Of a DNA stretch of 64,000 nt, positions 14,675 through 30,364 are shown one piece after another; the first letter of the stretch is position 1, and every line of letters starts with the position of its first letter. A model generated the notes under the pieces. It worked only from the letters and a program-made list of their open reading frames with translations. It made no database searches and was not told the DNA's origin. The translations under genes were made by a program, and so were the position numbers. Source of the DNA: Paucibacter sp. B2R-40 (lineage in GTDB: Bacteria > Pseudomonadota > Gammaproteobacteria > Burkholderiales > Burkholderiaceae_C); contig NZ_JAJIRP010000011.1 in the NCBI RefSeq assembly GCF_025717555.1, positions 1-64,000 of the forward strand. Direction: 5' to 3'.

Positions 14675-15787
14675 CTATCGCTTGTTTTCCCTCAGCATGA
14701 CCGCGCGGAAATGCTTGCCCTGCAGGGTCGGCTCGTAGTGCCAATCCTGGATCAGCTGCGGCGCCCAATCCGGGTCAAACACCCAAGCTACCCAACTGAC
14801 GCCTTTGCTGCTTAAGTAATTTGTTATGCGATTACCATAGCTGCCATCGTCGATAACAGGAATGTGGGCGCCTTTATCGGTCGCCAACTGGTAGCCGATT
14901 TCGGTGGCAATTACCGGGTACTTGTTGGCGACAAAACCCCAGTCACGCTCCCAGTTCTGCTCAAAAGGCGCAGCCACTTTCATCGGATAGGGGTGGCTGA
15001 CATAGGCCACGTTGCTGCGCTCGATCGGCTCTGTGGCTATCGGCGTGAGGTCATAGGCCCAGTTGAATCCGGCCACCAAGGAGATCGCATTCGGGTTGTG
15101 CGCCTGAATGATGGTAATCGCCTCTTCGTTGATGGCCTTCCAGTCGGCCCAGCTCAAGACACCTAATTGCCCGCCAAAAACGGTCGGCTCATTGAAGATC
15201 TCGAACATGGCGACCGCGTTGACGCCCTTGTAACGCGCCGCCACGGTGCGGAAAAAGTCGAATGTCTCCGCCTTGGTGGTGGCGTAGCTGCTGTTTTGAA
15301 ACAGCTCGGATTTGAGATTGCCGATGGAATGCCAATCGACAATCGCATACATGCCCAGTTCGTTGAGCCAGTGAACGGTCTGATCCAGAATTTCCAGATA
15401 GCCCTTCTTGCCGCGCCTCTGCCATGCCGAGGGGTGGACTGGAATGCGCACCACATTGGCGCCCCAGGCCTTGATGACCTCAAAGTGTTGGCGGCTGAAG
15501 TGGCCTTCTTTGACGAGCTTGTCCGGGTCGGAAATGTTCACGCCGCGAAACACAAGGGCGGCGCCCTGGTCATCCACGAACTGATTGCCCGCCACTTTCA
15601 CCTGTGGCAATTGCTGGGCGATGGCCGCCAAGTCGAAGCGCGGAATATCCGCGTCGCTGCTCCACCAGCCTTGGCCGTTTTGCCACGCCTGACCCTGCGA
15701 GGCGAGCAGGTCCGCGGCCAGGGCCTGGCCGCTGAGGCAACTTAAAAGCAGCCAGGCCCAAGGCTGCAGGCGAGTCATGGGCTTCAT
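14675..15787 (-). CDS. GH5 family secreted glucanase (cellulase-like)
   Basis: The 370-residue protein begins with a signal peptide ending QALA-AD (cleavage near residue 25), so it acts in the periplasm or outside. The TIM-barrel domain shows FRGVNIS, VVRIPVHPSAW, IVDWHS and the acid/base EIFNEP with Glu200; the nucleophile is Glu296 in VIATEIG. These are the hallmarks of glycoside hydrolase family 5, here most like endoglucanases. Its start overlaps the transporter stop by four bases (ATGA), so it is the last gene of the GH1-glucokinase-transporter operon and probably supplies cello-oligosaccharides. Mannan or xyloglucan as substrate cannot be excluded. Confidence 0.88.
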   Translation of the reverse strand: MKPMTRLQPWAWLLLSCLSGQALAADLLASQGQAWQNGQGWWSSDADIPRFDLAAIAQQLPQVKVAGNQFVDDQGAALVFRGVNISDPDKLVKEGHFSRQHFEVIKAWGANVVRIPVHPSAWQRRGKKGYLEILDQTVHWLNELGMYAIVDWHSIGNLKSELFQNSSYATTKAETFDFFRTVAARYKGVNAVAMFEIFNEPTVFGGQLGVLSWADWKAINEEAITIIQAHNPNAISLVAGFNWAYDLTPIATEPIERSNVAYVSHPYPMKVAAPFEQNWERDWGFVANKYPVIATEIGYQLATDKGAHIPVIDDGSYGNRITNYLSSKGVSWVAWVFDPDWAPQLIQDWHYEPTLQGKHFRAVMLRENKR

Positions 15788-17523
15788 GCAAAAGCGAGCC
15801 TATGGAGGCAAAAGATCAGCACGGCCAGCGAGACCGCCGCGCCGATCAGCGTCGCTATTTTTGCGCCCTGGGCATTGCCCAGATAGTGTTGTTCAGAGCT
15901 CGGGCTGGCCACCTGCGCGGCCTGGGCCGCAAGGCCAAAGGTCCGATGCGCGAAAAAGGCCTTGGGCAGCAGCAGCGCCAGCAGGAGCGAAAGCTGCGTC
16001 AGCCCACTGCCGGGCTCGGCGCCTTGCAGCGAGCCCAGCACCTTGGCGTCGCCGATCAAGACCAGCAAGATGCCCAGCATCGCAAACATCGACGCACGCC
16101 CGGCCAGGCCTTGCACGGCTTGTTCGACGACCGTCAAGCGCGCAGGGTCATCGACCGTCACTTGCACGCCGCCCGCACCGGCCGCAAAGATCGACGGGGC
16201 CTCGTCTTCCTGCTGCGGAAACGGCGCCCGCCAAGCCGCCAGCACCGAAGGCACCGAGGCGAACATCACGAGCAAGAAGAAGCTCGAAAAGCCCAACCAT
16301 TCCGCCAGCGGCCCGGAGATCATTGCGGTCGGCACCAAGACCAGGTTCATCAAGGCGGTGGCAAAAGCGTAATGGGTCATGGTCGAGCGGCCGGGTGCCA
16401 ACTGCTGCATCAGGTAGACCATATTGCCGACCATGCCGAAGCCATAGCCGAACTTTTCGATGCTGACCAAGCCCACCACGGCGCTGTAGTCCAGGCCATG
16501 GCCAGCGGCCGCGTAATGGCTCATCAGCACGAAGGTGAAATGCGGAATATTCAAGCTCAGGCCCAAGATCCAAAGCGAGCGCCGCAGGCCCAATTTGCCG
16601 GCGAAGGCGCCGCCCAGCAGGCCGCCCACGATGCTGGCGAGCGTGCCGTAGACCGCATCGATATCGCTGACTTGACCCGCACTCAGGCCCAAGCCGCCCT
16701 GCTCGGTGCTGCTCTGCAAGAACAGCTGGCCTTCCATCAGGATCAGCCCTTCGCCCAGGCGGTAGAGGAAGACAAAAGCAATCATGCCCCAGAAGGCCCG
16801 CTTATGAAAAAAGGTCGTTGCCGTGCCGCTGAAGTCACGCCAAACCTGAGCTGCGCCGCTCGGGCGCAGCGCCACGCTGCCGGTCGGCAAAACGAACAAG
16901 TGATACAGCGCCAGCAGACCCATCGCAGCGGCGCAGCTCAACATCACATGGCGCCACATCGCCTGATCGGACCAGCCTTGGCTGGCCTGCAGCTTGAACA
17001 ACACCGAAATCAACAGTCCTGTGGCCAAGACCTTGCCGAGCACCCAAAACGCACCTTGCATGCCGGCCAAGCGCGACTGCGCGGGTTTGTCGAGTGCGGT
17101 CAGGTAGATGCCATCGGCGCAGATGTCCTGGGTCGATGAGGCGAAGGCCGCCACCCACAACAAGGCAATGCTGATCTGGAAGAAGCCCGGCTCGCCGACC
17201 GACATCGCAATCGCCGCAAACAAGAAACCGCACAACAGCTCCATCGTCAGCACAAAGAAGCGCTTGGTCCGGTACATGTCCAGAAAGGCTGCCCACAGCG
17301 GCTTCAAGGACCAGGCAATGCCGATGCTGCCGACCGCGACGGTAATTTGGCTGTCGGCAAAGCCGAGCGACTTGAACATGCGCACCGAGGTGCCGTTGAT
17401 GACGTTGTAGGGAATGCCCATCGCCAAGTAGAGTGAGGCGACCCAAAAAACATTGCGCAGCGCCGAGAGTGGTGCTGCTTTGATCGGCGGTGTGGGCTTC
17501 ATTGAGCTCGTGATGTCCATCAT
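15784..17523 (-). CDS. MFS/PAT-family oligosaccharide transporter (AmpG-like)
   Basis: This 579-residue integral membrane protein has 12 or more hydrophobic segments. The N-terminal part (YLAMGIPYNVINGTSVRMF, LKPLWAAFLDMYRTKRFF) resembles the AmpG/PAT branch of the major facilitator superfamily. A C-terminal extension of roughly 100 residues adds further hydrophobic helices. AmpG imports anhydromuropeptides, but relatives within sugar loci are thought to import oligosaccharides. Its position, directly after glucokinase with no spacer and overlapping the GH5 gene, argues for inner-membrane import of cello-oligosaccharides. The substrate is inferred from context. Confidence 0.85.
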   Translation of the reverse strand: MMDITSSMKPTPPIKAAPLSALRNVFWVASLYLAMGIPYNVINGTSVRMFKSLGFADSQITVAVGSIGIAWSLKPLWAAFLDMYRTKRFFVLTMELLCGFLFAAIAMSVGEPGFFQISIALLWVAAFASSTQDICADGIYLTALDKPAQSRLAGMQGAFWVLGKVLATGLLISVLFKLQASQGWSDQAMWRHVMLSCAAAMGLLALYHLFVLPTGSVALRPSGAAQVWRDFSGTATTFFHKRAFWGMIAFVFLYRLGEGLILMEGQLFLQSSTEQGGLGLSAGQVSDIDAVYGTLASIVGGLLGGAFAGKLGLRRSLWILGLSLNIPHFTFVLMSHYAAAGHGLDYSAVVGLVSIEKFGYGFGMVGNMVYLMQQLAPGRSTMTHYAFATALMNLVLVPTAMISGPLAEWLGFSSFFLLVMFASVPSVLAAWRAPFPQQEDEAPSIFAAGAGGVQVTVDDPARLTVVEQAVQGLAGRASMFAMLGILLVLIGDAKVLGSLQGAEPGSGLTQLSLLLALLLPKAFFAHRTFGLAAQAAQVASPSSEQHYLGNAQGAKIATLIGAAVSLAVLIFCLHRLAFA

Positions 17524-18513
17524 TCAATGCGCCATATCAAGGTCCAGGGCGCGGCAAGCACCTTGCAAGGCCGCTTGCTCGCTGCAGCGTACGACAAAGC
17601 TCGGGATGTCACTCAAATAGGCCCGGAACCGTCCCTTGGCCTCAAAGCTGACGCGGAATTTTGACTCTGAAAATCGAGCGCCGAGTCGCGGCACGATGCC
17701 CCCGCCGATATACACACCGCCTCTTGCGCCCAAGGTCAGCGCCAAATTGCCAGCCACGCCGCCAAGCAAGCTGCAGAACATCTCCAGCGCTGCGTCGGCG
17801 ATCGCATCACTGCGTGCCAGCGCCGCCTGCGTCACCTGCTGTGCCGGCAAGGCCTCCACGCGCACACCACGCAGCTGCGCCAAGGCCATGTAGAGGTTTT
17901 CCAGCCCCGGCCCGGACAAGGCACGCTCGGCCGACGCATGGCCAAAGCGCTGCTGCAGGATGCCCAGCACCGCCTGCTCCTCGGGCTCGTAGGAGCTCAA
18001 GGTCACATGACCACCCTCGCCGCCCAGGGGCACCAAGCCCGCGCCGTAAGACGGCACCAGGCCCGACACACCCAGACCCGTGCCCGGCCCTATTAGCGCA
18101 ATCGGCGCGCCGGCTACCGCTTGGCCCGCACCAAGCTGGCATAGCGCATCGGCATGCAGCGTCGGCAGCGCCAGCGCCAGCGCCGAGAAGTCATTCAACA
18201 CCAGCAAGCGCTGCAGCCCCAAGGCCTCCTGCATGGCTTTGATCGAGAACGTCCACGCATGGTTGGTCATGCGGATATGGTCGCCGGTGACCGGCGTGGC
18301 GATGCCGATCGCGCTAGCGCGCGGCCGCTCCAGGCCCTCGCGCCAGAGGTGGTGGCAGATCGCGTCGCAAAGCGATTCAAAATCGGCGCAGGCATAGCTG
18401 CCGGTCTGCTGCAATGGGCCGTTGGCGCTGAACTGGCTGGCAAAGCGGACATTGGTGCCGCCGACATCGGCGAGCAAGCGCGGAAAGCCATGCGACTGAG
18501 CGGAGGGGTTCAT
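17524..18513 (-). CDS. glk: glucokinase
   Basis: The 329-residue protein matches the E. coli Glk type and not the ROK type. Features are the phosphate-binding LLADVGGTNVRFA near the N terminus, LNDFSALALALP, GPGTGLGVSGL and GGEGGHV, and a late GGVYIGGGI. It phosphorylates glucose with ATP to glucose 6-phosphate. I chose the ATG at 18513 because family homology begins about ten residues later; an upstream start at 18600 would run inside the GH1 gene. It lies 49 bases after GH1 and its stop touches the transporter start, which places it in the catabolic operon for glucose freed from cellobiose. Confidence 0.93.
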   Translation of the reverse strand: MNPSAQSHGFPRLLADVGGTNVRFASQFSANGPLQQTGSYACADFESLCDAICHHLWREGLERPRASAIGIATPVTGDHIRMTNHAWTFSIKAMQEALGLQRLLVLNDFSALALALPTLHADALCQLGAGQAVAGAPIALIGPGTGLGVSGLVPSYGAGLVPLGGEGGHVTLSSYEPEEQAVLGILQQRFGHASAERALSGPGLENLYMALAQLRGVRVEALPAQQVTQAALARSDAIADAALEMFCSLLGGVAGNLALTLGARGGVYIGGGIVPRLGARFSESKFRVSFEAKGRFRAYLSDIPSFVVRCSEQAALQGACRALDLDMAH

Positions 18514-18562
18514 GGGGCTCACTTTCGGGGCCGACTGGGCAGGCCGTGTCGGCGCGCTCGAC

Positions 18563-19933
18563 TCAGGCGCCGCCACGACTTGCGCTCCCAAAGGCCTCAA
18601 TCAGCGCCCGGTACCAATGTGCACTGGCCTTGGCCACGCGCTGCTGAGTGCTGTAGTCCACATGGAAGATGCCAAAGCGCTTCAGGTAGCCGGAATTCCA
18701 CTCGAAGTTATCGAGCAGACTCCAGTAGAAATAACCCCGCACATCCACCCCCAGGTCCATCGCCTGCGCCAAGGCGCTCAAATGGGCTTTCAGATAGGCA
18801 ATGCGTTCGACATCCATCACCTGCCCGTCCACCAGCTCATCGGCATTGGCCATGCCGTTTTCGGTGATGAAGATGGGCGGCGGCGAATACTCGCGGGTGA
18901 TGCGCACCAGATGCTGGGTCAGCGCCTTGGGGTAGATCTCCCAGCCCATATCGGTGAAGCCCATCTTGCCCGGTGCCGGCACGGCCGGCGTTTGCGTGCT
19001 GATGAAGCTGCGGGTGTAGAAGTTCACCCCCAGAAAGTCCAGCGGCTGCTGAATCAGGGTCAGGTCTTGCGCCTCGATCTGCGGGGCGTCGGTGCCCAGA
19101 TGTTCAATCACGTCGGCCGGATAGCTGCCCCTAAAAATGGGGTCCATATACCAGCGCACATTCAAGCCGTCATCGATACGGGCGGCTTGGCGATCGGCCT
19201 CGGTCGGCTCGGCCGCGAATGCCGGCGTGTGGTTCAAGACCACGCCGAGCTGAGTCTGCGTGAGCGGGCGCATCGCCAGAATTGCCGCGCCATGCGCCAT
19301 CATCAGATGATGCGAAACCTGCGCTGCTGTCTTGCGGCTGCGCAGGCCGGGGGCAAACTGGCCCGTTTCATAACCCAAGGTCGCCACGCACCAGGGTTCG
19401 TTCAAGGTCGCGATGCTGGCGACCTTGGCGCCAAAGCGCCGGGCGACTTCCGCCGCATAGGCTGCAAAGTGGGGCACGATATCGCGCGACATCCAGCCGC
19501 CGATACTGTCGTGCAAGGCTTGCGGCAAATCCCAGTGATACAGCGTCACATGGGGTTTGATGCCGGCTTCGATCAAAGCGTCGATCAATTGATCGTAGAA
19601 AGCGAAGCCGGCTTCGTTCCAGGCGCCCTCGCCCGATGCCTGCACGCGCGGCCAAGAGATCGAGAAACGGTAGGCCTCCAAGCCCAACCACTTCATACGC
19701 GCAATGTCTTCACGGAACAAGTGGTAATGGTCGCAAGCCAGATCGATGTGGGAGCCATCATTGATACGCCCGGGCTCGGCGCAAAAAGTATCCCAGATCG
19801 ATGCGCCCTTGCCGTCGAGCGCCGCTGCGCCTTCAATTTGGGCCGCGCTGGTGGCTGAGCCCCATTGAAAGCTGGCAGGAAATCGGCTCGCCAAAATGCT
19901 GTCTTCGGGCTTGAAAATATTGTTGGCAGTCAT
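18563..19933 (-). CDS. GH1 beta-glucosidase
   Basis: The 456-residue protein has full GH1 length and no signal peptide, so it acts in the cytosol. Signatures are FQWGSATSAAQIEG near residue 22, YRFSISWPR near 88, the acid/base ATLNEPW with Glu179, and the nucleophile ITENGMA with Glu358. It hydrolyses cellobiose and short beta-glucosides to glucose. It is the first gene of a leftward operon with glk, the transporter and GH5, expressed from the mirrored promoter at about 20090-20119. Confidence 0.95.
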   Translation of the reverse strand: MTANNIFKPEDSILASRFPASFQWGSATSAAQIEGAAALDGKGASIWDTFCAEPGRINDGSHIDLACDHYHLFREDIARMKWLGLEAYRFSISWPRVQASGEGAWNEAGFAFYDQLIDALIEAGIKPHVTLYHWDLPQALHDSIGGWMSRDIVPHFAAYAAEVARRFGAKVASIATLNEPWCVATLGYETGQFAPGLRSRKTAAQVSHHLMMAHGAAILAMRPLTQTQLGVVLNHTPAFAAEPTEADRQAARIDDGLNVRWYMDPIFRGSYPADVIEHLGTDAPQIEAQDLTLIQQPLDFLGVNFYTRSFISTQTPAVPAPGKMGFTDMGWEIYPKALTQHLVRITREYSPPPIFITENGMANADELVDGQVMDVERIAYLKAHLSALAQAMDLGVDVRGYFYWSLLDNFEWNSGYLKRFGIFHVDYSTQQRVAKASAHWYRALIEAFGSASRGGA

Positions 19934-20089
19934 GGGTTCACAGGTTCAAGATAATTCGGCAGTGGCGGGCTATGCCGAGAAGCAGGCTCTTCGAATAAGG
20001 CAGCCAAAACGGCGCTGAAACTTGTTGTCGGGGCAAAACACAGGGGTCACCCTCGCTGCTGCAAGGCATCGAAGCAATGCAGCGCGGCC

Positions 20090-20119
20090 ATGATAGAGAG
20101 CAAAAGACAACGTTGTCAA
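20090..20119 (-). promoter_or_regulatory. promoter of GH1-glk-transporter-GH5 operon
   Basis: On the minus strand TTGACA (20114-20119) is followed after 18 bases by TATCAT (20090-20095), or after 16 by TCTATC (20092-20097). The -35 hexamer lies inside the operator at 20106-20117, so a bound repressor would block polymerase. The plus-strand promoter at 20250-20279 is its mirror image. Confidence 0.65.
20106..20117. promoter_or_regulatory. operator copy 1 (GACAACGTTGTC)
   Basis: A perfect 12-bp palindrome with a central CG, as is usual for LacI-family sites. It overlaps the leftward -35 hexamer. The probable ligand-responsive repressor is the LacI-family protein encoded at 29297-30364. Confidence 0.7.
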
Positions 20120-20128
20120 CGAAAAATA

Positions 20129-20140
20129 GACAACGCTGTC
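20129..20140. promoter_or_regulatory. operator copy 2 (GACAACGCTGTC)
   Basis: One base from the perfect palindrome, centred 23 bases from copy 1, about two helical turns, so both could be bound on one DNA face. Confidence 0.65.
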
Positions 20141-20228
20141 GTTTACCCTGATGGGGTTACTTGGTGCGACCGGATCGAACGAAAGCCACCCGCTCAGAAG
20201 CTGTTGTTTTTTACGACTAGGGGAAAAC

Positions 20229-20240
20229 GACAACGCTGTC
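20229..20240. promoter_or_regulatory. operator copy 3 (GACAACGCTGTC)
   Basis: Identical in sequence to copy 2 on the plus strand and 23 bases before copy 4. It forms the inner site of the right arm. Confidence 0.65.
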
Positions 20241-20249
20241 ATTGGCTCG

Positions 20250-20279
20250 TTGACAACGTTGTCTTTTGCTCTTTATCAT
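20250..20279 (+). promoter_or_regulatory. promoter of TonB receptor operon
   Basis: TTGACA (20250-20255) is followed after 18 bases by TATCAT (20274-20279), or after 16 by TTTATC (20272-20277). The -35 hexamer overlaps operator copy 4. The transcript would have a leader of roughly 200 bases before the receptor start at 20483. Confidence 0.65.
20252..20263. promoter_or_regulatory. operator copy 4 (GACAACGTTGTC)
   Basis: A perfect palindrome identical to copy 1, overlapping the rightward -35 hexamer. Together the four sites make a symmetric GTT-GCT-GCT-GTT arrangement that should repress both arms equally. Confidence 0.7.
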
Positions 20280-20482
20280 CGCCAGACCTTGGCAAGGTGA
20301 GCACCGCACAGATGCCCGCCAGATCAAGGGACGAGGAACTCATAAAAGCGGCACGCATGGCATACGCCGTGCGCTAAACGAAACTGCATCCACCGTAGCA
20401 GATGGGTGCTTTGCTACCTCTCAATCAAGCCGGTGTGGATGCAAGTCCAACTCACGGTACCTAGCGCAGACATAGGAGACAT

Positions 20483-23400
20483 ATGAAAAGAGTTCAGATC
20501 CAACAACTTCAGAGTGACACCGCCCAGCGGCGAACCCTGAACATGAAGCCCGTTGCGAACGCCTGCGCGGCCTTGCTGACCTTGTTGGCCCCCGCCACGC
20601 AAGCCCAGCAGGCCGCCGGCACTGCGCCGGCGGCCTCATTGGGCGATACGCAGCGCCTTGATGCGGTGGTCGTCACCGGCATCCGCCGCTCGCTCGAATC
20701 CGCCGTTTCACTCAAGCGTGAAAACCACGGCGTGGTGGACGGCATCGTTGCGGAAGACATCGGCAAGTTCCCAGACACCAATCTGGCGGAATCGATGCAG
20801 CGCATCTCAGGCGTGTCCATCGAGCGCGGTCAAAGCGGCGAAGGTTCCCGCGTGACCGTGCGCGGCATCGGCGCCGACTTCAATATGGTGCTGTTGAACG
20901 GCCGCCAAATGCCCGGCGCCTTGCTCAACAGCGCGGAAGGCGGCAGCTCGGCCAACTCCTCGCGCGCTTTCGACTTCTCCAATCTCTCGTCCGACTCGGT
21001 GTCGGCGATCGAGGTGTTCAAAACCAGCCGCGCGGCCAAGCCGGCAGGCGGCATTGGCGCCACCATCAATATCAAGACCGCGCGCCCGCTCGACAGCAAG
21101 GAGCGCATCGCCAGCTTCTCCGTCAAGGCCAACCACGATGCGTCCAATGATCGCCTTCCGGAGATGTATCAAGGCAGCAGCATAACGCCTGATTTGTCCG
21201 GCATCTACAGCGACACCTTTGCCAATGGCACCATCGGCATCTCGATCAGCGGCAGCTTCTCGCGGCGCGATTCCGGCTCCAACAAGGCCTATACGCAAAA
21301 CGGCTGGCATCCTTTCCTCGGCGACGAGAGCGGTTGGGGTGCGATTCCGAAAAAGGGCGAGCCCGGTTACGACCAGATCACCAATCGCCCAGGCCCCAAC
21401 ACCCTGTACTCGACACCGGTGGACCTGCGCTATGCATTGACCGCCCTGGAGCGCGAACGCACCAACGGCCAGTTGGTGCTGCAATACGCGCCCAGCAAAG
21501 ACCTCAAGTTCACGCTCGACTACACGATCGCCGACAACACGGTCCACAAAAAGAATGTTCAAGTCGGCACCTGGTTCAACTTCCAGGGCGGCCCTTCGGC
21601 CTGGACCGACGGCCCCGTCGCCGGCCCAATTTCCTACTCGGCACTCTTCCCCGCCAACGACCATGACCTCGCCATCGACGGCGGCCAATATGGCGAGAAA
21701 GCCAAGAACCGCTCCACCGGCTTCAATGCGGAATGGAAGCTCAGCGAACAGCTCAGCGTGGAACTCGATGCGCATAGCTCCACTGCCAACACCTCACCAA
21801 ACAGCCCCTACGGCACCTATTCGGTGATCGGCTCGGGCATGTTCAGCCAGGGCGATGCCTTCGGCTATTACAGCAAGGATCTGCCCATCCTGAGCCTGCC
21901 CAACACGGTGTTCGACACCAACAAGATCCAGGTCGCCGGCACCCGTTTCGACAATGCCATGAGCGATCAGAAGATAGACCAGGCCCAGTTCCGCGGCGCC
22001 TACAAGCTCAGCAGCGACGACAAGCTGAACTTCGGCTTGTCCAGCACCAAGGTGAACAACCGCTCGGCCTCGGTTAACCACCAAAACGGCGATTGGGGTG
22101 GCGTGGGCAAGCAAGGCGATTACGCCGCCAATTTGTTCAATACCGAAAACCTGCCCAGCTATTTCGGCCAGGTCAAGGGCAGTGACGATCCGCGCCTGAT
22201 GCAGAAGTTCTACTCCTTTGACTTCAACACCATGCGCAACCGCGCGATTGAGATCGCGATGAAGTCGGGCACCTCCAGCCACCCGGCGCCATTGACGCGC
22301 GCAGAAGCGGAAGCCTACTTCTCGGCCTATACCGACTTCACCAAGGGCGTCGACCTGCGCACGACCGAAAAGTCGACCAGCGGCTTCTTGCAATACGACC
22401 ACAGCTTCGACACCGCCATTCCGATGAGCGTGTCGGTCGGCGTGCGGCGCGAATCCACCAAGGTCGACTCGAGCTCGCAAGTGCTGTCGCTGACGGGTGC
22501 CAGCTGGGGTTCTTTGAACGAGATCTCGGTGCAGTCCGGCGGCACGGCCTTCGGCTCATCCAGCGGCAAGTACAGCTACTGGCTGCCCAGCATTGACTGG
22601 GATGCAGACCTGACGGCCAATATGAAATTGCGCGCCAGCTATGGCGAGACCATCGGCCGCCCCGGTTGGGCTGCGCTTGCAGGCGGCGTGACGGTGGGCG
22701 ACACGGCCAACGCCGGCGGCGGCACCGGCTCCACCGGCAATGCCGCGCTGCTGCCGCTGCTGTCGAAGAACTGGGACACCTCGCTGGAGTACTACTACAG
22801 CAAGTCCAGCTATGTGGCGGCCGGTCTGTTCCGCAAGAACATCACCAACTTCATCTCTAGCACCACGGTCAGGCAACCGGTCGGTCAGGTGCACACGCCG
22901 ATCGGGGGCAAATACTACCTTGCGGCAATAGCCAGCGGCTGCTCGGCCACCGATCCCAAATGCCAGCGCAACTACATCTTCAACAACTTCGACGGCCAGC
23001 CGGGCGTGACCAAGACCGGCGTCAATGCGGCCGGTGAGATCCAGGGCACCATCGTCGGCCAAGCGACCGACCCCTTGCTGCAGTTTGCGGTCACCACGCC
23101 GTCGAATGCCAAGGGCGACAACCTGAGCGGCATCGAGCTGAACGCGCAACATCTGTTCGGCAACTCCGGCTTCGGCGTCGCGGGCAATTACACCCGGGTG
23201 TCTTCCGGCTTGTCCTACGACAACCACAGCACGGCGGCGCAGTCGGCGCTGGTCGGCGTGAGCAACTCCTACAACCTGGTCGGTTTCTATGAGGGCAGCG
23301 GTTTTTCGATTCGCGGCGCGTACAACTGGCGCGGCGAGTTCTTGGCGGCGACGACCGATGGCGCAGGCAACAACCCCATCTACACCGAACCCTACGGTCA

Positions 23401-23569
23401 GCTGGACATGACGATTGCCTACAAGATGACGAAAAACCTCACCTTCCAGGCTGACTTCCTCAACCTGAACGATGGGGTAATTCGCCAGCATGGCCGTACC
23501 AAGGAGCAGTTAGTATCGGTGACTCAAACGGGCCGCCGCTATTTGGTGGGGGCACGCTACTCGTTCTAA
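20483..23569 (+). CDS. TonB-dependent receptor (Xanthomonas/Caulobacter type)
   Basis: The 1028-residue outer-membrane protein has a signal peptide after a 20-residue leader (MKPVANACAALLTLLAPATQA). A plug domain (about 60-190) follows with VVVTGIRRSLESA, the likely TonB box region, then EDIGKFPDTNLAESMQRISGVSIERG, a signature of the TonB-Xanth-Caul subfamily. The beta-barrel ends in an aromatic residue (ARYSF), as expected for BAM recognition. AGGAGA precedes the ATG. Such receptors take up oligosaccharides; the divergent GH1/GH5 operon under the same operators points to cello-oligosaccharides. It heads the halogenase operon. Confidence 0.93.
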   Translation: MKRVQIQQLQSDTAQRRTLNMKPVANACAALLTLLAPATQAQQAAGTAPAASLGDTQRLDAVVVTGIRRSLESAVSLKRENHGVVDGIVAEDIGKFPDTNLAESMQRISGVSIERGQSGEGSRVTVRGIGADFNMVLLNGRQMPGALLNSAEGGSSANSSRAFDFSNLSSDSVSAIEVFKTSRAAKPAGGIGATINIKTARPLDSKERIASFSVKANHDASNDRLPEMYQGSSITPDLSGIYSDTFANGTIGISISGSFSRRDSGSNKAYTQNGWHPFLGDESGWGAIPKKGEPGYDQITNRPGPNTLYSTPVDLRYALTALERERTNGQLVLQYAPSKDLKFTLDYTIADNTVHKKNVQVGTWFNFQGGPSAWTDGPVAGPISYSALFPANDHDLAIDGGQYGEKAKNRSTGFNAEWKLSEQLSVELDAHSSTANTSPNSPYGTYSVIGSGMFSQGDAFGYYSKDLPILSLPNTVFDTNKIQVAGTRFDNAMSDQKIDQAQFRGAYKLSSDDKLNFGLSSTKVNNRSASVNHQNGDWGGVGKQGDYAANLFNTENLPSYFGQVKGSDDPRLMQKFYSFDFNTMRNRAIEIAMKSGTSSHPAPLTRAEAEAYFSAYTDFTKGVDLRTTEKSTSGFLQYDHSFDTAIPMSVSVGVRRESTKVDSSSQVLSLTGASWGSLNEISVQSGGTAFGSSSGKYSYWLPSIDWDADLTANMKLRASYGETIGRPGWAALAGGVTVGDTANAGGGTGSTGNAALLPLLSKNWDTSLEYYYSKSSYVAAGLFRKNITNFISSTTVRQPVGQVHTPIGGKYYLAAIASGCSATDPKCQRNYIFNNFDGQPGVTKTGVNAAGEIQGTIVGQATDPLLQFAVTTPSNAKGDNLSGIELNAQHLFGNSGFGVAGNYTRVSSGLSYDNHSTAAQSALVGVSNSYNLVGFYEGSGFSIRGAYNWRGEFLAATTDGAGNNPIYTEPYGQLDMTIAYKMTKNLTFQADFLNLNDGVIRQHGRTKEQLVSVTQTGRRYLVGARYSF

Positions 23570-23580
23570 ACGACCAGCAC

Positions 23581-23622
23581 ACCGAACCGGCAAAACCCCA
23601 ACCGGGGATCTGTCGGTTCGGT
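23581..23622 (+). other. stem-loop between TonB receptor and halogenase gene
   Basis: ACCGAACCG (23581-23589) pairs exactly with CGGTTCGGT (23614-23622), and an inner CCCC/GGGG pairing is possible. There is no T-run, so it is more likely an mRNA-stabilising or attenuating structure that keeps receptor expression above that of downstream genes than a full terminator. Confidence 0.5.
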
Positions 23623-23663
23623 CAGTACTGAAGCAGAGTCCTACAGTTATCGCGAGACTTGAT

Positions 23664-25211
23664 ATGACGCAAGCGGTGCGGCGCATCGTGGTGTTGGGGG
23701 GCGGCTCGGCGGGTTGGCTGACCGCAGCCTTGTTGGCCGCAGAACATGGTGGTTTGGACGCCGGAAAATTGCAGATCAGCCTGATCGAATCGCCCGACGC
23801 ACCCGCCATCGGCGTGGGCGAAGGCACCTGGCCCTCGATGCGCGAAACCCTGCAGCGCATCGGCCTGCGCGAGCTTGATCTGCTGCGTGACTGCGACGCA
23901 GCCTTCAAGCAGGGCTCACGTTTTGACGGCTGGGTGAATGGTCTCAAGACCGATCACTACTACCATCCCTTCTCGCTGCCGCAAGGTCATGGCGAGGCCG
24001 ACGTGGTCGGCGCCTGGCTGCGCGCCGGCGCCGACCAAGGCTTTGCGGAATGCGTCAGCCCCCAGCCCCATGTTTGCAATGCGAGCCTGGCCCCCAAGCA
24101 AGTCACGACGCCGGAATTTGGCGGCGCAATCAATTACGGCTACCACTTTGATGCCGTCAAGATGGGCCTGTTGCTGCGCAAGCACGCGACCGAGAAGCTG
24201 GGCGTCAGACATGTGGCGGACGAAGTCACCCAGGTGCTCGCCCATGAAAATGGCGACATCGCAGCATTGCGGACCCGTAGCCACGGCGACATTGAGGGCG
24301 ATCTCTTCATCGACTGCTCGGGCCTCAAGTCATTGCTCATTGGCCAACATTACGGCGTGCCGCTGCGGTCGCAGCAGCACGTGCTCTTCAACGACAGCGC
24401 CTTGGCCTTGCAAGTACCCTATACCGACCAATATGGCCCGCTGGCCTCCGTCACGATCGCGACGGCCCATTCACAGGGCTGGACTTGGGACATTGGGCTG
24501 CCCAGCCGGCGTGGCGTCGGCCTGGTCTATTCCAGCGCCCACACCAGCGTCGAGGCAGCCGAACAGGGGCTGCGTCAACATATCGAGCGCAGCGGCGGCC
24601 CGGCAGCGGCCGACCTTGCCACGCCGCGCCACATCCCTTTCACACCCGGCTACCGCGAGCGTTTCTGGCAACGCAACTGCGTCGCGGTAGGTCTGTCCTC
24701 GGGTTTCATAGAGCCGCTGGAAGCCTCAGCACTCGCGCTGGTCGAGTTGTCGGCCGCGATGATCCGCGACGAGTTGCCCGCCAATCGCGCCGACATGGAC
24801 ATCGTGGCCAAGCGTTTCAACGACGCCTTCAGCTACCGCTGGGCCCGCATCATCGATTTCCTCAAGCTGCATTACGCGCTCAACCAACGCGATGATTCCG
24901 ACTATTGGCGTGAGCACCGCCAAGCCGATTCCATGCCCGAAGGCCTGGGCGAACTGCTGCAGCTCTGGCGTCACCGGGCGCCCTTGCGGAGCGATCTGTT
25001 CCGCGTCGACGAAGTGTTCCCCGCCGCGAGCTACCAATATGTGCTCTATGGCATGGGCTTCAAACCGAACTTGGCCGCACCCCAAGCCGCGCGACTCGCG
25101 CAAGCGCAGGCGTGCTTCCAGCAGGTCACGACGGCCACCAAGCGCTTGCTCGGCGGCTTGCCGCGCCACCGCGATTTGATCCGTCACATCCATGCGCATG
25201 GCATGGCTTAA
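23664..25211 (+). CDS. flavin-dependent tryptophan-halogenase-like protein (first copy)
   Basis: The 515-residue protein has the FAD motif VVLGGGSAGWLTAALL at the start, GVGEGTWPSM near residue 50, and the catalytic lysine of PrnA/RebH-type halogenases as Lys82 in AAFKQGSRF. The WxWxIP signature is altered to WTWDIGLP, and the PLES motif is PLEAS, keeping the glutamate but losing the adjacent serine. Halogenases oxidise halide with FADH2 and oxygen; the true substrate of sugar-locus members is not established. It is the second gene of the receptor operon, 94 bases after it with a stem-loop between. A separate flavin reductase is not in the operon. Confidence 0.85.
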   Translation: MTQAVRRIVVLGGGSAGWLTAALLAAEHGGLDAGKLQISLIESPDAPAIGVGEGTWPSMRETLQRIGLRELDLLRDCDAAFKQGSRFDGWVNGLKTDHYYHPFSLPQGHGEADVVGAWLRAGADQGFAECVSPQPHVCNASLAPKQVTTPEFGGAINYGYHFDAVKMGLLLRKHATEKLGVRHVADEVTQVLAHENGDIAALRTRSHGDIEGDLFIDCSGLKSLLIGQHYGVPLRSQQHVLFNDSALALQVPYTDQYGPLASVTIATAHSQGWTWDIGLPSRRGVGLVYSSAHTSVEAAEQGLRQHIERSGGPAAADLATPRHIPFTPGYRERFWQRNCVAVGLSSGFIEPLEASALALVELSAAMIRDELPANRADMDIVAKRFNDAFSYRWARIIDFLKLHYALNQRDDSDYWREHRQADSMPEGLGELLQLWRHRAPLRSDLFRVDEVFPAASYQYVLYGMGFKPNLAAPQAARLAQAQACFQQVTTATKRLLGGLPRHRDLIRHIHAHGMA

Positions 25212-25251
25212 ATTCAATTGACTCGTCAACTTCAGACTGAACTCACACCTC

Positions 25252-25953
25252 ATGCAAAACCCAGTCCTGCTCGACAACATCACGCACAAAGATCTGCGCA
25301 TCATCACCCGGCGCGGCGCCGAATGGGGCGATGCGCGGATGTCCTGCCTGGCAACGCCGGACGAGTTCCGCCGTCTGCAAGTGCATTACCCGATCGTGTT
25401 CCAGAAGAACTCGGACGGACAGATGCAGCCGCTCGCCCTGCTCGGTCTGCAAGAAGGCCAGAACCTCTTCCTAGGACCCGACGGCTGGACCGTGCCTTAC
25501 CTGCCCTTGGCCATGCAGCGCGAACCCTTCATGATTGGCGTCAACGAGGATGAGCTCAGGATGCTGGTGGACATGGCCAGCCCGCGCATCAGCCAAGGCG
25601 CCGAAGGTGAGGCCGTGTTCTTGCCTCAAGGCGGCACCAGCGAATTCCTGGAACATGCCAACTCGGTGTTGAAATCCCTGCACGAGGGCTTGCAAGCCAC
25701 ACCCGCCTTCGTCGAAGCCTTGCTCGCACATGACTTGCTGGAGCCCTTTGTCTTGGATGTCGAGCGCCCCGACGGCACCCATGCCCGCCTGGTCGGCCTG
25801 CACACCATCCACGAAGAACGCCTCGCGGCGCTGGACGAAAAGACGGTCGGCCTGCTGCACCAGGCCGACTATCTGCTGCCCATCTATATGGCCATTGCCT
25901 CGATGTCCAATCTGCACAACCTGATCCGCCTGCAGCTCGCGCGGGAGGCTTGA
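25252..25953 (+). CDS. SapC family protein
   Basis: The 233-residue protein resembles the SapC family, first noted near a Campylobacter surface-layer locus and common in TonB/halogenase operons. Recognisable parts are the start NPVLLDNITHKDLRI, HYPIVFQKN, LALLGLQEGQNLFL and the end LLPIYMAIASMSNLHNLIR. There is no signal peptide, so it is cytosolic. Molecular function is unknown. It lies 40 bases after the halogenase gene and four before the cupin gene, so these are clearly one transcript. Confidence 0.82.
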   Translation: MQNPVLLDNITHKDLRIITRRGAEWGDARMSCLATPDEFRRLQVHYPIVFQKNSDGQMQPLALLGLQEGQNLFLGPDGWTVPYLPLAMQREPFMIGVNEDELRMLVDMASPRISQGAEGEAVFLPQGGTSEFLEHANSVLKSLHEGLQATPAFVEALLAHDLLEPFVLDVERPDGTHARLVGLHTIHEERLAALDEKTVGLLHQADYLLPIYMAIASMSNLHNLIRLQLAREA

Positions 25954-25957
25954 GGCC

Positions 25958-26971
25958 ATGGGCAAGCCCATGCTGGAGCGCAGCGACGTCCATGCCGACG
26001 CCTTGCCCGCCGACTTGCTGCAAAGCACCGAGCCGGTGCTGCTGCGGGGCCTGGTGCGTCATTGGCCGCTGGTGCAGGCGGCGCGGCAATCCGATCAGCA
26101 TTTTTGCGACTATCTGCGCGGCTTTGGCGCCGCTGGCGCCGCGACCAAAGTCGGCCTGTGGCGCGGTGCGCCCGAGATTGAAGGTCGTTTTTTCTACAAC
26201 GCCGACTTCAGTGGCTTCAACTATCAGCGCGAGATTGCCGGCTTTGGCGCACTGCTGGATGAATTGCTGGCGCAGGCCGCAGCGCCCAAACCGCCTGCGC
26301 TTTATCTCGGCTCCACCGAACTCGACGGTTCCTTCCCCGGCCTGCGCCAAGCCAATGACTTGCCACTGAAGGTGGCGGACCCCTTGGTCAGCCTGTGGCT
26401 GGGCAACCTGGTGCGCGTGGCCGCGCACTTTGACCTGCCGGACAATATCGCCTGTGTCGTCGCGGGACGGCGCCGCTTCACGCTGTTCCCGCCCGAGCAG
26501 GTCAGCAATCTCTACATCGGCCCGCTGGATCTGACGCCGGCCGGGCAAGCCATCAGCTTGGTCGATATGGCCAAGCCAGATTTCGCGCGCTTCCCGCGCT
26601 ATGCCCAGGCGCTAGCGCAAGCACAAACGGTGGAGTTGGCGCCAGGTGACGCGGTCTTCATCCCCAGCCTGTGGTGGCATGCGGTGGAGGCGCTGGAGCC
26701 GATCAGCGCGCTGGTAAATTTCTGGTGGCGGCAAAGCCCGGCCTTCATGGATTCACCGATGAACACCTTGATGCTGGCCTTGATGACACTGCGCGACCTG
26801 CCGCCGGCCCAGCGCCAAGCTTGGGGCGCCCTGTTCGACCACTATGTTTTCAATGCGGATGCGCAAACCGCCGCCCATATCCCGCCGAGCGCCCAAGGCG
26901 TGCTGGCTCCCATCACGTCGGACCGCGCCCGCCATCTGCGCTCGGTGCTGCTGAACCGTCTGAACCGTTAG
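25958..26971 (+). CDS. JmjC/cupin-8-like Fe(II)/2-oxoglutarate oxygenase candidate
   Basis: The 337-residue cytosolic protein has the cupin-like domain of FIH/JmjC hydroxylases. The iron triad is visible as His157 and Asp159 in VAAHFDLPDN and His241 in IPSLWWHAVEAL, with RRRFTLFPPEQ between them. Such enzymes hydroxylate protein or peptide side chains using oxygen and 2-oxoglutarate. GGGAGG before the ATG lies within the SapC coding end, indicating coupled translation. Its target is unknown; proteins in the same operon are the obvious candidates. Confidence 0.85.
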   Translation: MGKPMLERSDVHADALPADLLQSTEPVLLRGLVRHWPLVQAARQSDQHFCDYLRGFGAAGAATKVGLWRGAPEIEGRFFYNADFSGFNYQREIAGFGALLDELLAQAAAPKPPALYLGSTELDGSFPGLRQANDLPLKVADPLVSLWLGNLVRVAAHFDLPDNIACVVAGRRRFTLFPPEQVSNLYIGPLDLTPAGQAISLVDMAKPDFARFPRYAQALAQAQTVELAPGDAVFIPSLWWHAVEALEPISALVNFWWRQSPAFMDSPMNTLMLALMTLRDLPPAQRQAWGALFDHYVFNADAQTAAHIPPSAQGVLAPITSDRARHLRSVLLNRLNR

Positions 26972-26984
26972 TCAGGATTTGCCC

Positions 26985-29279
26985 ATGAACACAATGGCAT
27001 CAAGCCCATTCGAAAGCGCGGCCCCGTACGCATCCAAGCCGGTGCGCCGCATCGTCATCGCCGGCGGCGGCACCGCCGGCTGGATGGTGGCGGCCGGCCT
27101 GTCCAAGAGCTTAGGGAAGCTGTACGACATCCGCCTGATCGAGTCGGAAGAAATCGGCACCATAGGCGTCGGCGAAGCGACCATCCCGACCCTGCATTTC
27201 TTTCACGAAATTCTCGGTATCGATGAGCGCGAGTTCATGGCCGCCACGCAAGCGACCTTCAAGCTGGGCATCAGTTTCGAGAACTGGCGCAATGTCGGCG
27301 AGGACTATTTCCACTCCTTCGGCACCACCGGCAAACCGCATTGGACGGCCGGCTTCCAGCACTTCTGGCTGGAGGGCCGCAAGCGCGGCCTGGCCAGCGA
27401 CTACGGCGACTATTGCCTGGAGTTGCGCGCGGCGATGGACAAGCGCTTTGCCCATCTGCCCAACACCGGCCTGAACTATGCCTACCACCTCGACGCCACG
27501 CTCTATGCCCAGTATTTGCGCCGTTTCTCCGAGGCCTTGGGCGTGCAGCGCATCGAGGGCAAGATCGTCAAGGTGCACAGCGACCTCAGCGGCGAGGCGA
27601 GCCATGGCGGCATCACCGGGCTGACTTTGGATGACGGCGCCTTGATCGAAGGCGATCTGTTCATCGACTGCACCGGCATGCGCTCGCTGCTGCTGGGTGA
27701 AACCTTGGGCGTGGCCTATCAGGACTGGTCGCAATGGTTGCACTGCGACAGCGCCGTGGCCGTGCAGACCGCGTCCGTGGGCGAGGCCGTACCCTATACC
27801 CGCTCGATCGCCCACCCCTGGGGCTGGCAATGGCAGATCCCCTTGCAGCACCGGGTCGGCAATGGCCTGGTGTTCAGCAGCAAGCACCTGGACGACGAGG
27901 CCGCCAAGGCCGCACTTTTAGCCAACGTCAAGGGCGAGGTGATGCGCCCACCGCGCGTCATCAAATTCACGCCGGGCCAGCGTGAGCTGGTGTGGCAGCG
28001 CAATTGTGTCGCCATCGGCCTGTCCAGCGGGTTTCTGGAACCGATTGAGTCCACCAGCATTCACCTGATTCAACGCGGCCTGACGCGCTTGATTCAGATG
28101 TTCCCGGCCGATGGCATTTGCCAGAGCGATATCGACGAGTACAACGATCAGTCGCGCCGCGCCATCGAGACCATTCGTGATTTCATCATCCTGCATTACC
28201 ACGTCAACAATCGCAGCGACGCTCAGTTCTGGCGTGAGTGCCGTGAAATGGCGGTCCCGAAGTTGCTGGCGCACCGCATCCAGCTGTTCAAGGATTCGGC
28301 CCGCGTCTGCCTCGATTCCGACGAGCTGTTTCGCGATAACTCCTGGATTCAGGTGATGATGGGCCAGGGCATCAGCCCCACCGGCCACCACCCGGTGACA
28401 CGCCGCATGAGCGACGCGGACCTGAGCGAGTTTCTCGGCGATATCCGCAAAGAAGCGGCGCGCAGCTTGATCAAACTGCCCAAGCACCAGGACTATGTCA
28501 CCCGCCTGTTTGGCGCGCCCAAGGCCAGCGCCGTCGGCAGCGTCCCCGCCTCTGCGCCCGGTATGCCTGCCTTGCGCCTCAACCCGAACCCAAGCATTCA
28601 GACCATTGCGCTGAGCAACGGCCAAGAGGTCTTTGTGATTGATGAGTTCGTGCAAGACCCGGATGGCCTGGTGCGCTTGGCGCAGTCCGTCTCGAATCAA
28701 TTCCATATTCCTGCCGGCCATCCCTATCCCGGCCCACAGCTGGATTTGCCCACCGAAATGGCTGTGCAACTGGATGATTACTTCCGCCACCATCTGCGCG
28801 CCCGGCTGCAAGCCGGCCCACCGCTGGGCATGTATGGACGCTTTTCGCGCGTCACCCAAGACAGCTCGACACTGGATGCCCGCCAACGCACCTGCCACCG
28901 TGACGACTCAGGGCTGGAGCCCGGGGAGATGATGTGCGCACTGGTTCACTATTTGTTCGGTGACGAACAGCTCGGCGGCACCGTGCTGTTCCGCTCGCTG
29001 ATGTCAGAGCGGGACACGCAAAGCTTCTTGGCCGATGCCAGAACCATGAGCGGCAGCGCATTTGGCAGCAAGTACGGCATTCCGGCAGCCTATATGACCC
29101 AGAGCAACCGCTACTTCGAGGTGATAGGCCGCGTGCCCGCCAAATGGAACCGCGCGGTTTTTTACGACGGCAGCATCTTCCATTCCGGTGACATCCAAGC
29201 CGCGCCCGCGGCGTATCAGGCCGGCCTGGGGCGCTTGACCGTCAACGCGTTTTTCAAGAGCGCCAAGTTGGCGGCCTGA
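26985..29279 (+). CDS. flavin-dependent halogenase fused to DUF6445-like oxygenase domain
   Basis: The 764-residue protein is longer than usual halogenases (about 500-540). Residues 1-520 form a canonical halogenase: IVIAGGGTAGWMVAAGL, GVGEATIPTL, Lys93 in ATFKLGISF, WQWQIPL for WxWxIP, and LEPIESTSI with the catalytic glutamate and serine. Residues about 545-764 look like the separately encoded DUF6445 family and show a possible iron triad, His638 and Asp640 in CHRDDS and His733 in IFHSGD, with Arg750 placed to bind 2-oxoglutarate. I chose the ATG at 26985, with AGGA before it; a TTG at 26979 is in frame. It is the last gene of the receptor operon. Substrate is unknown. Confidence 0.82.
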   Translation: MNTMASSPFESAAPYASKPVRRIVIAGGGTAGWMVAAGLSKSLGKLYDIRLIESEEIGTIGVGEATIPTLHFFHEILGIDEREFMAATQATFKLGISFENWRNVGEDYFHSFGTTGKPHWTAGFQHFWLEGRKRGLASDYGDYCLELRAAMDKRFAHLPNTGLNYAYHLDATLYAQYLRRFSEALGVQRIEGKIVKVHSDLSGEASHGGITGLTLDDGALIEGDLFIDCTGMRSLLLGETLGVAYQDWSQWLHCDSAVAVQTASVGEAVPYTRSIAHPWGWQWQIPLQHRVGNGLVFSSKHLDDEAAKAALLANVKGEVMRPPRVIKFTPGQRELVWQRNCVAIGLSSGFLEPIESTSIHLIQRGLTRLIQMFPADGICQSDIDEYNDQSRRAIETIRDFIILHYHVNNRSDAQFWRECREMAVPKLLAHRIQLFKDSARVCLDSDELFRDNSWIQVMMGQGISPTGHHPVTRRMSDADLSEFLGDIRKEAARSLIKLPKHQDYVTRLFGAPKASAVGSVPASAPGMPALRLNPNPSIQTIALSNGQEVFVIDEFVQDPDGLVRLAQSVSNQFHIPAGHPYPGPQLDLPTEMAVQLDDYFRHHLRARLQAGPPLGMYGRFSRVTQDSSTLDARQRTCHRDDSGLEPGEMMCALVHYLFGDEQLGGTVLFRSLMSERDTQSFLADARTMSGSAFGSKYGIPAAYMTQSNRYFEVIGRVPAKWNRAVFYDGSIFHSGDIQAAPAAYQAGLGRLTVNAFFKSAKLAA

Positions 29280-29296
29280 GGTCGAGTCCTGCCGGC

Positions 29297-30364
29297 TCAG
29301 GCCTTTTTCTTGGGCGCGGGGTTGGCGTGCAAGGCACGGCTTGAATCGCGAACCAGCAATTGGTGCGGCAGCACCCGGTGCGAACTCTGCGGCGTCGCCG
29401 CCTCGGCGTCATTGCCCTTGGCGGCGATCAGCATCTCCACCGCCACGCTGGCCATTTCATGGGTGGGCTGGCGCACGGTGGTCAACGGCGGCCACACCAG
29501 GCTGGCCGCGCTGGAATCATCGAAACCGGCGATCGACAAGTCACTCGGCACATTCAAGCCCAGCCTCTGCGCCGCCGCCAGCACGCCCAGAGCCATATCG
29601 TCATTGCTGGCGAACACCGCCGTTGGCCGCACGCCTCGGCTCAGCAGCTTGTGCGCGCCTTCCACGCCACTCGGGAAGGTGAAGTCGCCTTCCCAAACCA
29701 AGCTCTCTTCGACGGGCAGTTCATGCGCCTGCATGGCCCGCACAAAACCTCGGTAGCGCAACTCCGAGGCCGCTTGATCGGGTGCGCCCTTGATGAAGCC
29801 GATGTGCTCGTGGCCCAGGCTGATCAGCAGGTTCGTCACCTCTTCGGCGGCCAGTTCGTCGTCCATGCGAACGCTGAACTGATCATTCGGCTGCCGGCCC
29901 GGCGAGAGCAGCACAAACGGCGTTTCGTTGTCGCGCAGTGCCTGCAGAACCTTGGGGTTATCACATAGCGGCGGCGTCAGAATCATGCCGTCCGGGCGCA
30001 GCGCGGAGACCATCCTGTCGACTTGGTTGTAGATGTCAGGCGCATCATTGTGCAAGGACTCCACCACCAAGTGATAGCCCGACTCGCGGCAGCGCAGCGT
30101 CGCACCCTGCTGCACCCCGCCGACAAAGGCCGCGCTAGGGTCGTAATAAAGCAGGCCGATCAAAAAGGAACGCCCGCCGCCCATGCTGCGCGCGGCCAGC
30201 TTGGGCCGGTACTTCAGGGCCGCCACCACCTTGAGCACTTGCTCGCGGGTCTTCTCCTGCACCCCGGCTTCTTTATTGAGCACGCGGGAGACCGTCTTGA
30301 TCGACACGCCGGCCTGTTCGGCCACATCCACAATCGTCGGGCTAGACCCTACTCTGCTTGCCAC
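29297..30364 (-). CDS. LacI-family transcriptional repressor
   Basis: The 355-residue protein has an N-terminal LacI helix-turn-helix (TIVDVAEQAGVSIKTVSRVLNK, about residues 9-30), the hinge YRPKLAARSM, and a periplasmic-binding-protein-like effector domain (about 66-345) with GFIKGAP and SIAGFDDSSAA. It converges on the end of the halogenase operon with 17 bases between. It is the only plausible regulator for the four GACAACGYTGTC operators at 20106-20263, which would be relieved by a cello-oligosaccharide or beta-glucoside. I found no copy of that operator before its own gene. Confidence 0.93.
   Translation of the reverse strand: MASRVGSSPTIVDVAEQAGVSIKTVSRVLNKEAGVQEKTREQVLKVVAALKYRPKLAARSMGGGRSFLIGLLYYDPSAAFVGGVQQGATLRCRESGYHLVVESLHNDAPDIYNQVDRMVSALRPDGMILTPPLCDNPKVLQALRDNETPFVLLSPGRQPNDQFSVRMDDELAAEEVTNLLISLGHEHIGFIKGAPDQAASELRYRGFVRAMQAHELPVEESLVWEGDFTFPSGVEGAHKLLSRGVRPTAVFASNDDMALGVLAAAQRLGLNVPSDLSIAGFDDSSAASLVWPPLTTVRQPTHEMASVAVEMLIAAKGNDAEAATPQSSHRVLPHQLLVRDSSRALHANPAPKKKA

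Follow-up and report, generated by a model that had tools for sequence, protein, structure and literature searches.

A sugar-receptor operon of Paucibacter carrying a conserved module of putative modification enzymes

Why should an operon headed by a sugar receptor encode halogenase-like and hydroxylase-like proteins? The question is posed by positions 20483–29279 of a 64,000-nucleotide stretch of DNA from Paucibacter sp. B2R-40 (contig NZ_JAJIRP010000011.1 of assembly GCF_025717555.1, positions 1 to 64,000; hereafter the window), where a TonB-dependent receptor is followed by two flavin halogenase-like proteins, here named HalA and HalB, a SapC protein, a Cupin_8 protein and a DUF6445 domain. 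Judged by its sequence, the operon belongs to a known type of sugar locus and carries a conserved module of putative modification enzymes, and this cassette is much more general than the window locus. The best explanation, which we advance tentatively, would be that the receptor chain is modified before export by the co-produced oxidative module.

The receptor cassette and its distribution

The five genes share the plus strand, are separated by gaps of 94, 40, 4 and 7 bp, and are probably transcribed as one operon. The first (20483–23569) encodes a protein of 1028 amino acids with TonB plug and barrel domains, which belongs by its family scores to the oligosaccharide-type receptors of TIGR01782 (598.4 bits; curated cut-off 310). 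It is followed by HalA (23664–25211), a member of the Trp_halogenase family (PF04820), a SapC family protein of the group that accompanies halogenases (25252–25953), a Cupin_8/JmjC protein (25958–26971) and HalB (26979–29279, starting at TTG 26979 or ATG 26985), a second PF04820 protein that is fused to a DUF6445 domain (28584–29255). Pfam scores were 395 and 610 bits for the two PF04820 proteins, 217.5 for SapC (cut-off 28.9), 231 for Cupin_8 and 206 for DUF6445, and these strong scores confirm all six parts named in an earlier note on this DNA. That note had called the receptor specific for cello-oligosaccharides; the oligosaccharide type holds, while the "cello" part derives only from the neighbouring GH5, GH1 (glycoside hydrolase families 5 and 1) and glucokinase genes, which suggest this specificity.

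A scan of genome contigs with the window SapC yielded 343 relatives, of which the best 80 were kept, a sample biased to close relatives; the closest named one is from Paucibacter oligotrophus (95% identity). Within this sample, a receptor stands beside the cassette in every one of the 68 loci that extend 5 kb or more upstream. Seven of the 80 loci have no receptor in view, all with less than 3.4 kb upstream, and in L163 a GH1 gene lies directly upstream of HalA. The order receptor–HalA–SapC–Cupin_8–HalB is the commonest (59 of 80). Where the sequence leaves room to see them, HalA is encoded in 66 of 78 loci and the cupin and HalB in 76 of 77 each. The L128 receptor is split into two overlapping open reading frames (ORFs), of which the longer alone was used. 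Among 300 genomes of the order, the receptor gave eight strong matches in six genomes, seven of them adjoining a cassette; the eighth (L236) has none beside it, and its genome has a cassette elsewhere. SapC was found in 53 and DUF6445 in seven of 369 genomes of the class, and for 55 of the 73 SapC matches a wide stretch around the gene was read, which holds a halogenase in 14 and none in 41.

The same kind of cassette is present in plasmid records of Sphingobium, Sphingomonas, Novosphingobium and Catenovulum (read in 7 of the 14 records with receptor matches and 5 of the 31 with SapC matches). For example, a plasmid of Sphingobium RAC03 has the order receptor–SapC–cupin–halogenase–GH16–LacI–MFS (major facilitator superfamily)–GH3, and plasmid loci of Catenovulum show receptor–halogenase (HalA)–SapC beside an agarase gene in one case and receptor–halogenase with a convergent DUF6445 gene in another. 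Viral contigs searched with SapC gave no relative.

The halogenases also follow a receptor lineage. The window genome encodes eight TIGR01782-type receptors, and seven of its nine strong halogenases have one of them within 8.5 kb (about 5e-10 by a rough binomial estimate, with the distance chosen afterwards and operon pairs not independent). We then classed 88 TIGR01782 receptors from 12 genomes, namely 80 of 83 found rows plus the eight of the window genome (left out were the L236 receptor, G352:C5 and G167:C70), by the presence of SapC within 2.5 kb on the same strand and of halogenases or other parts within 6 kb. Eighteen have SapC and a halogenase, 13 a halogenase without such a SapC, two another part and 55 none. 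Seventeen of the 18 with SapC and halogenase fall into one clade with support 1.00, and the halogenase-only receptors form several further clades. Receptors L303, L295 and L318 have two or three HalB-type ORFs nearby and no SapC (one of the three being weak in L303 and L295), an arrangement that we regard as a second kind of receptor–halogenase coupling.

The sugar enzymes around the cassette vary. In the fetched flanks of 82 cassette loci, genes of GH1 type were found in 22, GH3 in 20 and pullulanase type in eight (several per locus being possible, and GH1 and pullulanase types being counted within 10 kb), and 37 loci contain none of seven probed proteins. All eight pullulanase-type loci are from Oxalobacteraceae, possibly representing one event, and Pfam confirms the enzyme in L097 only. 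Further neighbours include GH16, GH43 and GH95 loci and an agarase. The glycan types range over beta-glucan, laminarin, xylan, agar and pullulan, so the constant partner is the receptor. Since the enzyme set tracks the receptor lineage over chemically different glycans, it most likely serves the receptor. No clear aromatic-degradation or scaffold enzyme was seen among 38 annotated neighbour proteins of related loci; one of them (L118) is a pirin, a family said to include quercetinases. Two more annotated proteins belong to the C10 locus described below.

Sequence features of the enzymes and of SapC

HalB has the features of a flavin-dependent tryptophan halogenase: the window copy carries GxGxxG, the catalytic lysine (Lys95) and WxWxIP, together with E357. 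Among aligned relatives, the lysine and the EST loop are kept in 79 of 79 sequences, WxWxIP in 78 of 79 and GxGxxG, by regular expression over the first 120 residues, in 67 of 79. Its first match among solved structures is Xcc4156 (6y1w, 2.6e-203), and BrvH (6frl, 6e-137) is third. WxWxIP, the lysine and the EST loop are common to all three; unlike the other two, HalB here carries a DUF6445 domain. A second halogenase gene lies upstream of brvH. For both enzymes the native substrate is described as not established and free tryptophan is not accepted, the active site of Xcc4156 is open, and a peptide has been proposed as substrate, with MibH as model (PMC7336383, PMC5945002).

HalA departs from this pattern, and here the earlier note's description of two flavin halogenase-like proteins needs a correction. 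The active-site lysine (Lys82) and the loop glutamate are invariant in 69 of 69 relatives, as is the loop glutamate in 79 of 79 for HalB. WxWxIP, however, is present in none of the 69 aligned relatives, which all read WxWDI, followed by G in 67 (WTWDIG in the window), and in all 69 the presumed halide loop is EAS in place of EST. The loops of both proteins were matched to the halide site by our own alignment and by the residues that the papers on BrvH and Xcc4156 specify. The closest solved relative (2.4e-166) is 2pyx, a "tryptophan halogenase" of the Joint Center for Structural Genomics, which shares WxWDIG and EPLEASA with HalA. Lacking WxWxIP and carrying an EAS loop, HalA may not be a halogenase. 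It could be a hydroxylase, as WxWxIP has been suggested to stop such enzymes from working as monooxygenases (PMC5945002).

The claim of a JmjC/cupin-like protein with an intact HxD...H set was borne out, with H157, D159 and H241 forming an HxD...H metal triad that is invariant in 79 of 79 relatives. The closest solved relatives are FIH (7e-17) and JMJD5 (1e-14), both JmjC protein hydroxylases; they resemble the cupin in the HxD...H core and by sequence match, and the match is restricted to this core. The DUF6445 domain is 2-oxoglutarate (2OG)/Fe(II) oxygenase-like by motif, with H120-x-D122...H215...R232 (numbering of a 246-residue piece) kept in 13 of 13 aligned sequences; a further weak Pfam match (G074; locus L212) was not recovered by our own DUF6445 profile. 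In L169 and L342, DUF6445 is a separate gene adjoining HalB, which fits the HalB–DUF6445 fusion in the window and in L088–L092. Profile searches against solved structures gave no meaningful match for SapC and DUF6445, and none for the receptor.

The family name of SapC presumably points to a surface-layer role, and its neighbourhoods outside the cassette are relevant here. In the 41 SapC loci without a halogenase, a same-strand ORF of at least 1300 amino acids lies within 2.5 kb in 22, compared with two of 55 enzyme-less receptors. This contrast was the same when flanks were equalised to 6 kb (22 of 41 versus 2 of 55, Fisher p 1.4e-8), and with 5.5-kb flanks the counts were 19 of 41 and 2 of 55. 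On the opposite strand the count was three of 41. Pfam analysis of seven of these giant ORFs revealed a two-partner secretion (TPS) domain in L221, DUF5649 repeats in L176 and nothing in the other five; the giants of L223, L224 and L225 look TpsA-like by eye. ShlB, HlyD, OEP and SecA-like proteins are also found near SapC (loci L168–L227), and in Azospirillum the SapC gene follows a gene of 15.4 kb. Aconitase, alcohol dehydrogenase and malic enzyme types recur as well and say nothing for surface proteins. These neighbourhoods suggest that SapC serves exported surface proteins more widely: it often accompanies large surface proteins that are at least partly exported, a place that the TonB receptor would take in the halogenase cassette. 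On a 37-kb plasmid of Pseudomonas canadensis (L351:4762–5828), SapC directly follows a DUF6447 gene, with no receptor in the 10.7 kb shown.

Operators and surrounding genes

Four LacI-type GACAACGYTGTC operators sit between the receptor operon and a divergent operon on the minus strand, which encodes a GH1 beta-glucosidase (18563–19933), a glucokinase (17524–18600), an MFS transporter (15784–17523) and a GH5 endoglucanase-like protein (14675–15787). The outer operators, GACAACGTTGTC at 20106–20117 and 20252–20263, are perfect palindromes, and the inner ones, at 20129–20140 and 20229–20240, read GACAACGCTGTC; they form two pairs with a within-pair spacing of 23 bp. In both pairs, the outer operator overlaps a promoter-like site that agrees with the consensus at 11 of 12 bases; the site on the minus strand (20119–20090) faces the divergent operon and that on the plus strand (20250–20279) the receptor operon. 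Two such sites in the region do not exceed the chance level (mean 1.8), so that only their overlap and symmetry are notable. The shared operators claimed by the earlier note are real: with at most one mismatch on both strands, the motif has eight matches in the window versus 0.55 expected, a number reached in none of 100 shuffles. The exact motif recurs just twice in the rest of the genome, once close to another halogenase (C10). There, the stretch C10 1–4000 (L049:90–3974) contains a HalA-type gene and, ahead of it, two small genes that by eye resemble a toxin–antitoxin pair, and the exact operator copy, at 2506–2517, lies just before a Na/H exchanger gene.

A LacI-family gene (29297–30364, minus strand) lies downstream of the receptor operon and convergent to it. 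Its product is a candidate ligand-responsive repressor and probably the binder of the four operators. Together, operators and LacI gene make sugar-controlled expression, which the earlier note had proposed, a well-supported prediction for the two divergent operons.

The locus thus combines the TonB receptor, regulator, shared operators, transporter and glycoside hydrolases by which carbohydrate-utilization (CUT) loci are recognized. It resembles those of Xanthomonas and Caulobacter in its TIGR01782 receptor, LacI, sugar transporter and glycoside hydrolases, and differs from them in the added oxidative enzyme set. Halogenase, SapC and cupin are absent from the main text of the CUT paper (PMC1790865), as are halogenase and SapC from that of PMC2996990, and the accessible part of PMC8269204 has no mention of TonB or SapC. 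For Colwellia and phages, PMC11337851 reports that halogenase genes are expressed and speculates that they take part in virus–host receptor interactions; no locus is described in its available text. Titles and abstract openings among the matches listed held no description of the receptor–cassette association, subscription literature being outside the scope.

Two further minus-strand genes of the window were observed. The product of one (45031–53658), 2875 amino acids long, combines GH94-type and glucoamylase-like domains and is probably a cyclic beta-glucan synthase; the other (60152–60961) encodes a protein carrying a PEP-CTERM motif, hinting at exosortase-type protein sorting.

Candidate substrates of the module

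The explanation that we tentatively favour, modification of the receptor chain before export, can be laid out as follows. The operon would be a sugar-induced unit for glycan uptake that makes the TonB receptor together with a module for oxidative protein modification. While the receptor chain is still unfolded, SapC would attach to it or keep it close to the enzymes. Selected side chains would then be halogenated or hydroxylated in the cytoplasm, ahead of export by Sec, through the action of HalB, HalA, the cupin and, in this operon, the DUF6445 domain fused to HalB. The flavoenzymes would target an indole or phenol, and the two enzymes of Fe(II) type a residue like Asn or Asp. Such a modification might adjust how the extracellular side of the receptor binds its ligand or how stable it is, or might shield the receptor from phages and bacteriocins. 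Receptor as substrate, enzyme chemistry and benefit are inferred; the comparisons above favour the earlier note's proposal of post-translational modification of the receptor or a co-expressed surface component. A likeness exists in the Qhp system, in which QhpG, a halogenase-like flavoenzyme, dihydroxylates tryptophan of a protein in the cytoplasm (PMC7876137).

Several results weigh against this explanation. HalA is not a member of the QhpG family NF049967, scoring 36.8 bits, far below the cut-off of 240, and no QhpC-like partner was identified at the window locus. The cytoplasmic location of the enzymes is likely from their families and not from hydropathy: SapC and the cupin lack a hydrophobic N-terminal stretch, while those of HalA and HalB coincide with the FAD (flavin adenine dinucleotide)-binding GxGxxG segment and score about as high as that of the GH5 protein, so that the two cannot be cleanly separated from exported proteins. 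Cassettes can miss one enzyme or another, the main receptor clade also contains one enzyme-less receptor, and enzyme-less receptors stand in or near it (L316, L236 and four of seven plasmid-borne receptors read without enzymes nearby). In three residue tests no receptor residue tracked the enzymes independently of phylogeny. A comparison of 12 HalA-minus receptors (no HalA in the locus, with HalA elsewhere in those genomes unchecked) with 61 HalA-plus receptors revealed no Trp, Tyr or His that is consistently lost, only Phe/Tyr exchanges.

Two residues, W364 and N679, which our own reading of the strand pattern would place in extracellular loops, come closest and are both clade-bound. Among the 88 receptors, W364 is found in 17 of 17 of the main clade, none of the 13 halogenase-only and two of the 55 enzyme-less receptors. 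With plasmid receptors added (an alignment that excludes L280 and L292), it is present in 21 of 21 enzyme-linked clade receptors, but also in five of six without enzymes nearby; it is retained in the enzyme-less clade receptors L316 and L344–L346 and absent from L307, which is an independent receptor accompanied by SapC and two HalA-type genes. Asparagine at position 679 is found in 16 of 16 HalB-linked receptors, none of five enzyme-linked receptors without HalB and one of six without enzymes nearby. This pattern amounts to about one change on the tree and is a lead only: L157 keeps N679 with neither halogenase in its locus, and L347 has Thr there, with the SapC–halogenase set (L350) on its plasmid. 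The idea that N679 is the target of the cupin arose from L316, which has Ser at this position and whose genome (G348) has no Cupin_8 protein over the cut-off, only a 21-bit piece. It was rejected, since in the plasmid-borne receptors the residue goes with HalB and not with the cupin: L343 has a cupin gene but Thr, and L350 has no cupin nearby but Asn.

Other substrates have to be weighed against the receptor. Flavin halogenases usually serve natural products, which speaks for a reading in which, on sugar detection, the enzymes convert an indole or phenol, imported or derived from tryptophan, into a signal or inhibitor, the receptor sharing only their regulation. Relatives of HalB point the same way, as BrvH brominates indole at a low rate (PMC5945002) and indole derivatives are substrates of Xcc4156 and related enzymes (PMC7336383). 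We nevertheless judge this reading unlikely, if the leading one among the alternatives. The locus does not look like a natural-product cluster, with no scaffold synthase among the proteins scanned in 14675–30364 or the 38 neighbours of related loci; the cassette is linked to a receptor clade over several sugars; and SapC would be left without a role. The earlier note's other proposal, that the enzymes modify aromatic compounds released along with plant polysaccharide, is disfavoured by the company of the cassettes, as the sugars of pullulanase-type, agarase and GH16/GH3 loci have no linked plant aromatics, and the 38 neighbours hold no clear aromatic-degradation enzyme.

Ranking next, and likewise unlikely, is modification of another surface or periplasmic protein, such as a TonB/ExbD partner, a glycan-binding protein or a shared surface layer. 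That SapC adjoins other kinds of exported proteins and that enzyme-less clade receptors keep W364 would suit it well; yet the receptor is the only evident exported protein of the window cassette, and co-inheritance is with the receptor clade. Far less probable is action on the imported oligosaccharide or its aglycone. Aryl glycosides could be its substrates, and 22 of 82 loci have a GH1-type gene within 10 kb whose product could set aglycones free, but related cassettes accompany pullulanase-type, agarase and GH16 genes, and we know of no member of the four enzyme families that acts on plain sugars. We consider it just as improbable that halogenation was lost and that the flavoenzymes are oxidases or redox-defence proteins carried along with sugar loci: the missing WxWxIP and EST loop of HalA would fit, whereas the lysine and loop glutamate are invariant in both proteins (69 of 69 and 79 of 79) and HalB keeps its EST loop (79 of 79) and WxWxIP (78 of 79).

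Modification of the receptor before export, the explanation we prefer, may be extended to a broader and more doubtful claim: many proteobacterial sugar receptors might be halogenated and/or hydroxylated on residues of their extracellular loops, with W364 and N679 as candidate sites, by a cytoplasmic module of a SapC adaptor, two flavoenzymes and one or two Fe(II) oxygenases, and this would be the native role of the BrvH/Xcc4156 halogenases. In Beta-, Gamma- and Alphaproteobacteria, cassette relatives of these enzymes are now linked to a single lineage of receptors. If true, SapC, DUF6445 and this group of bacterial Cupin_8 proteins would gain a shared role, and the outer-membrane proteins of bacteria would be subject to a new class of modification, one that might govern the uptake of nutrients or the access of phages.

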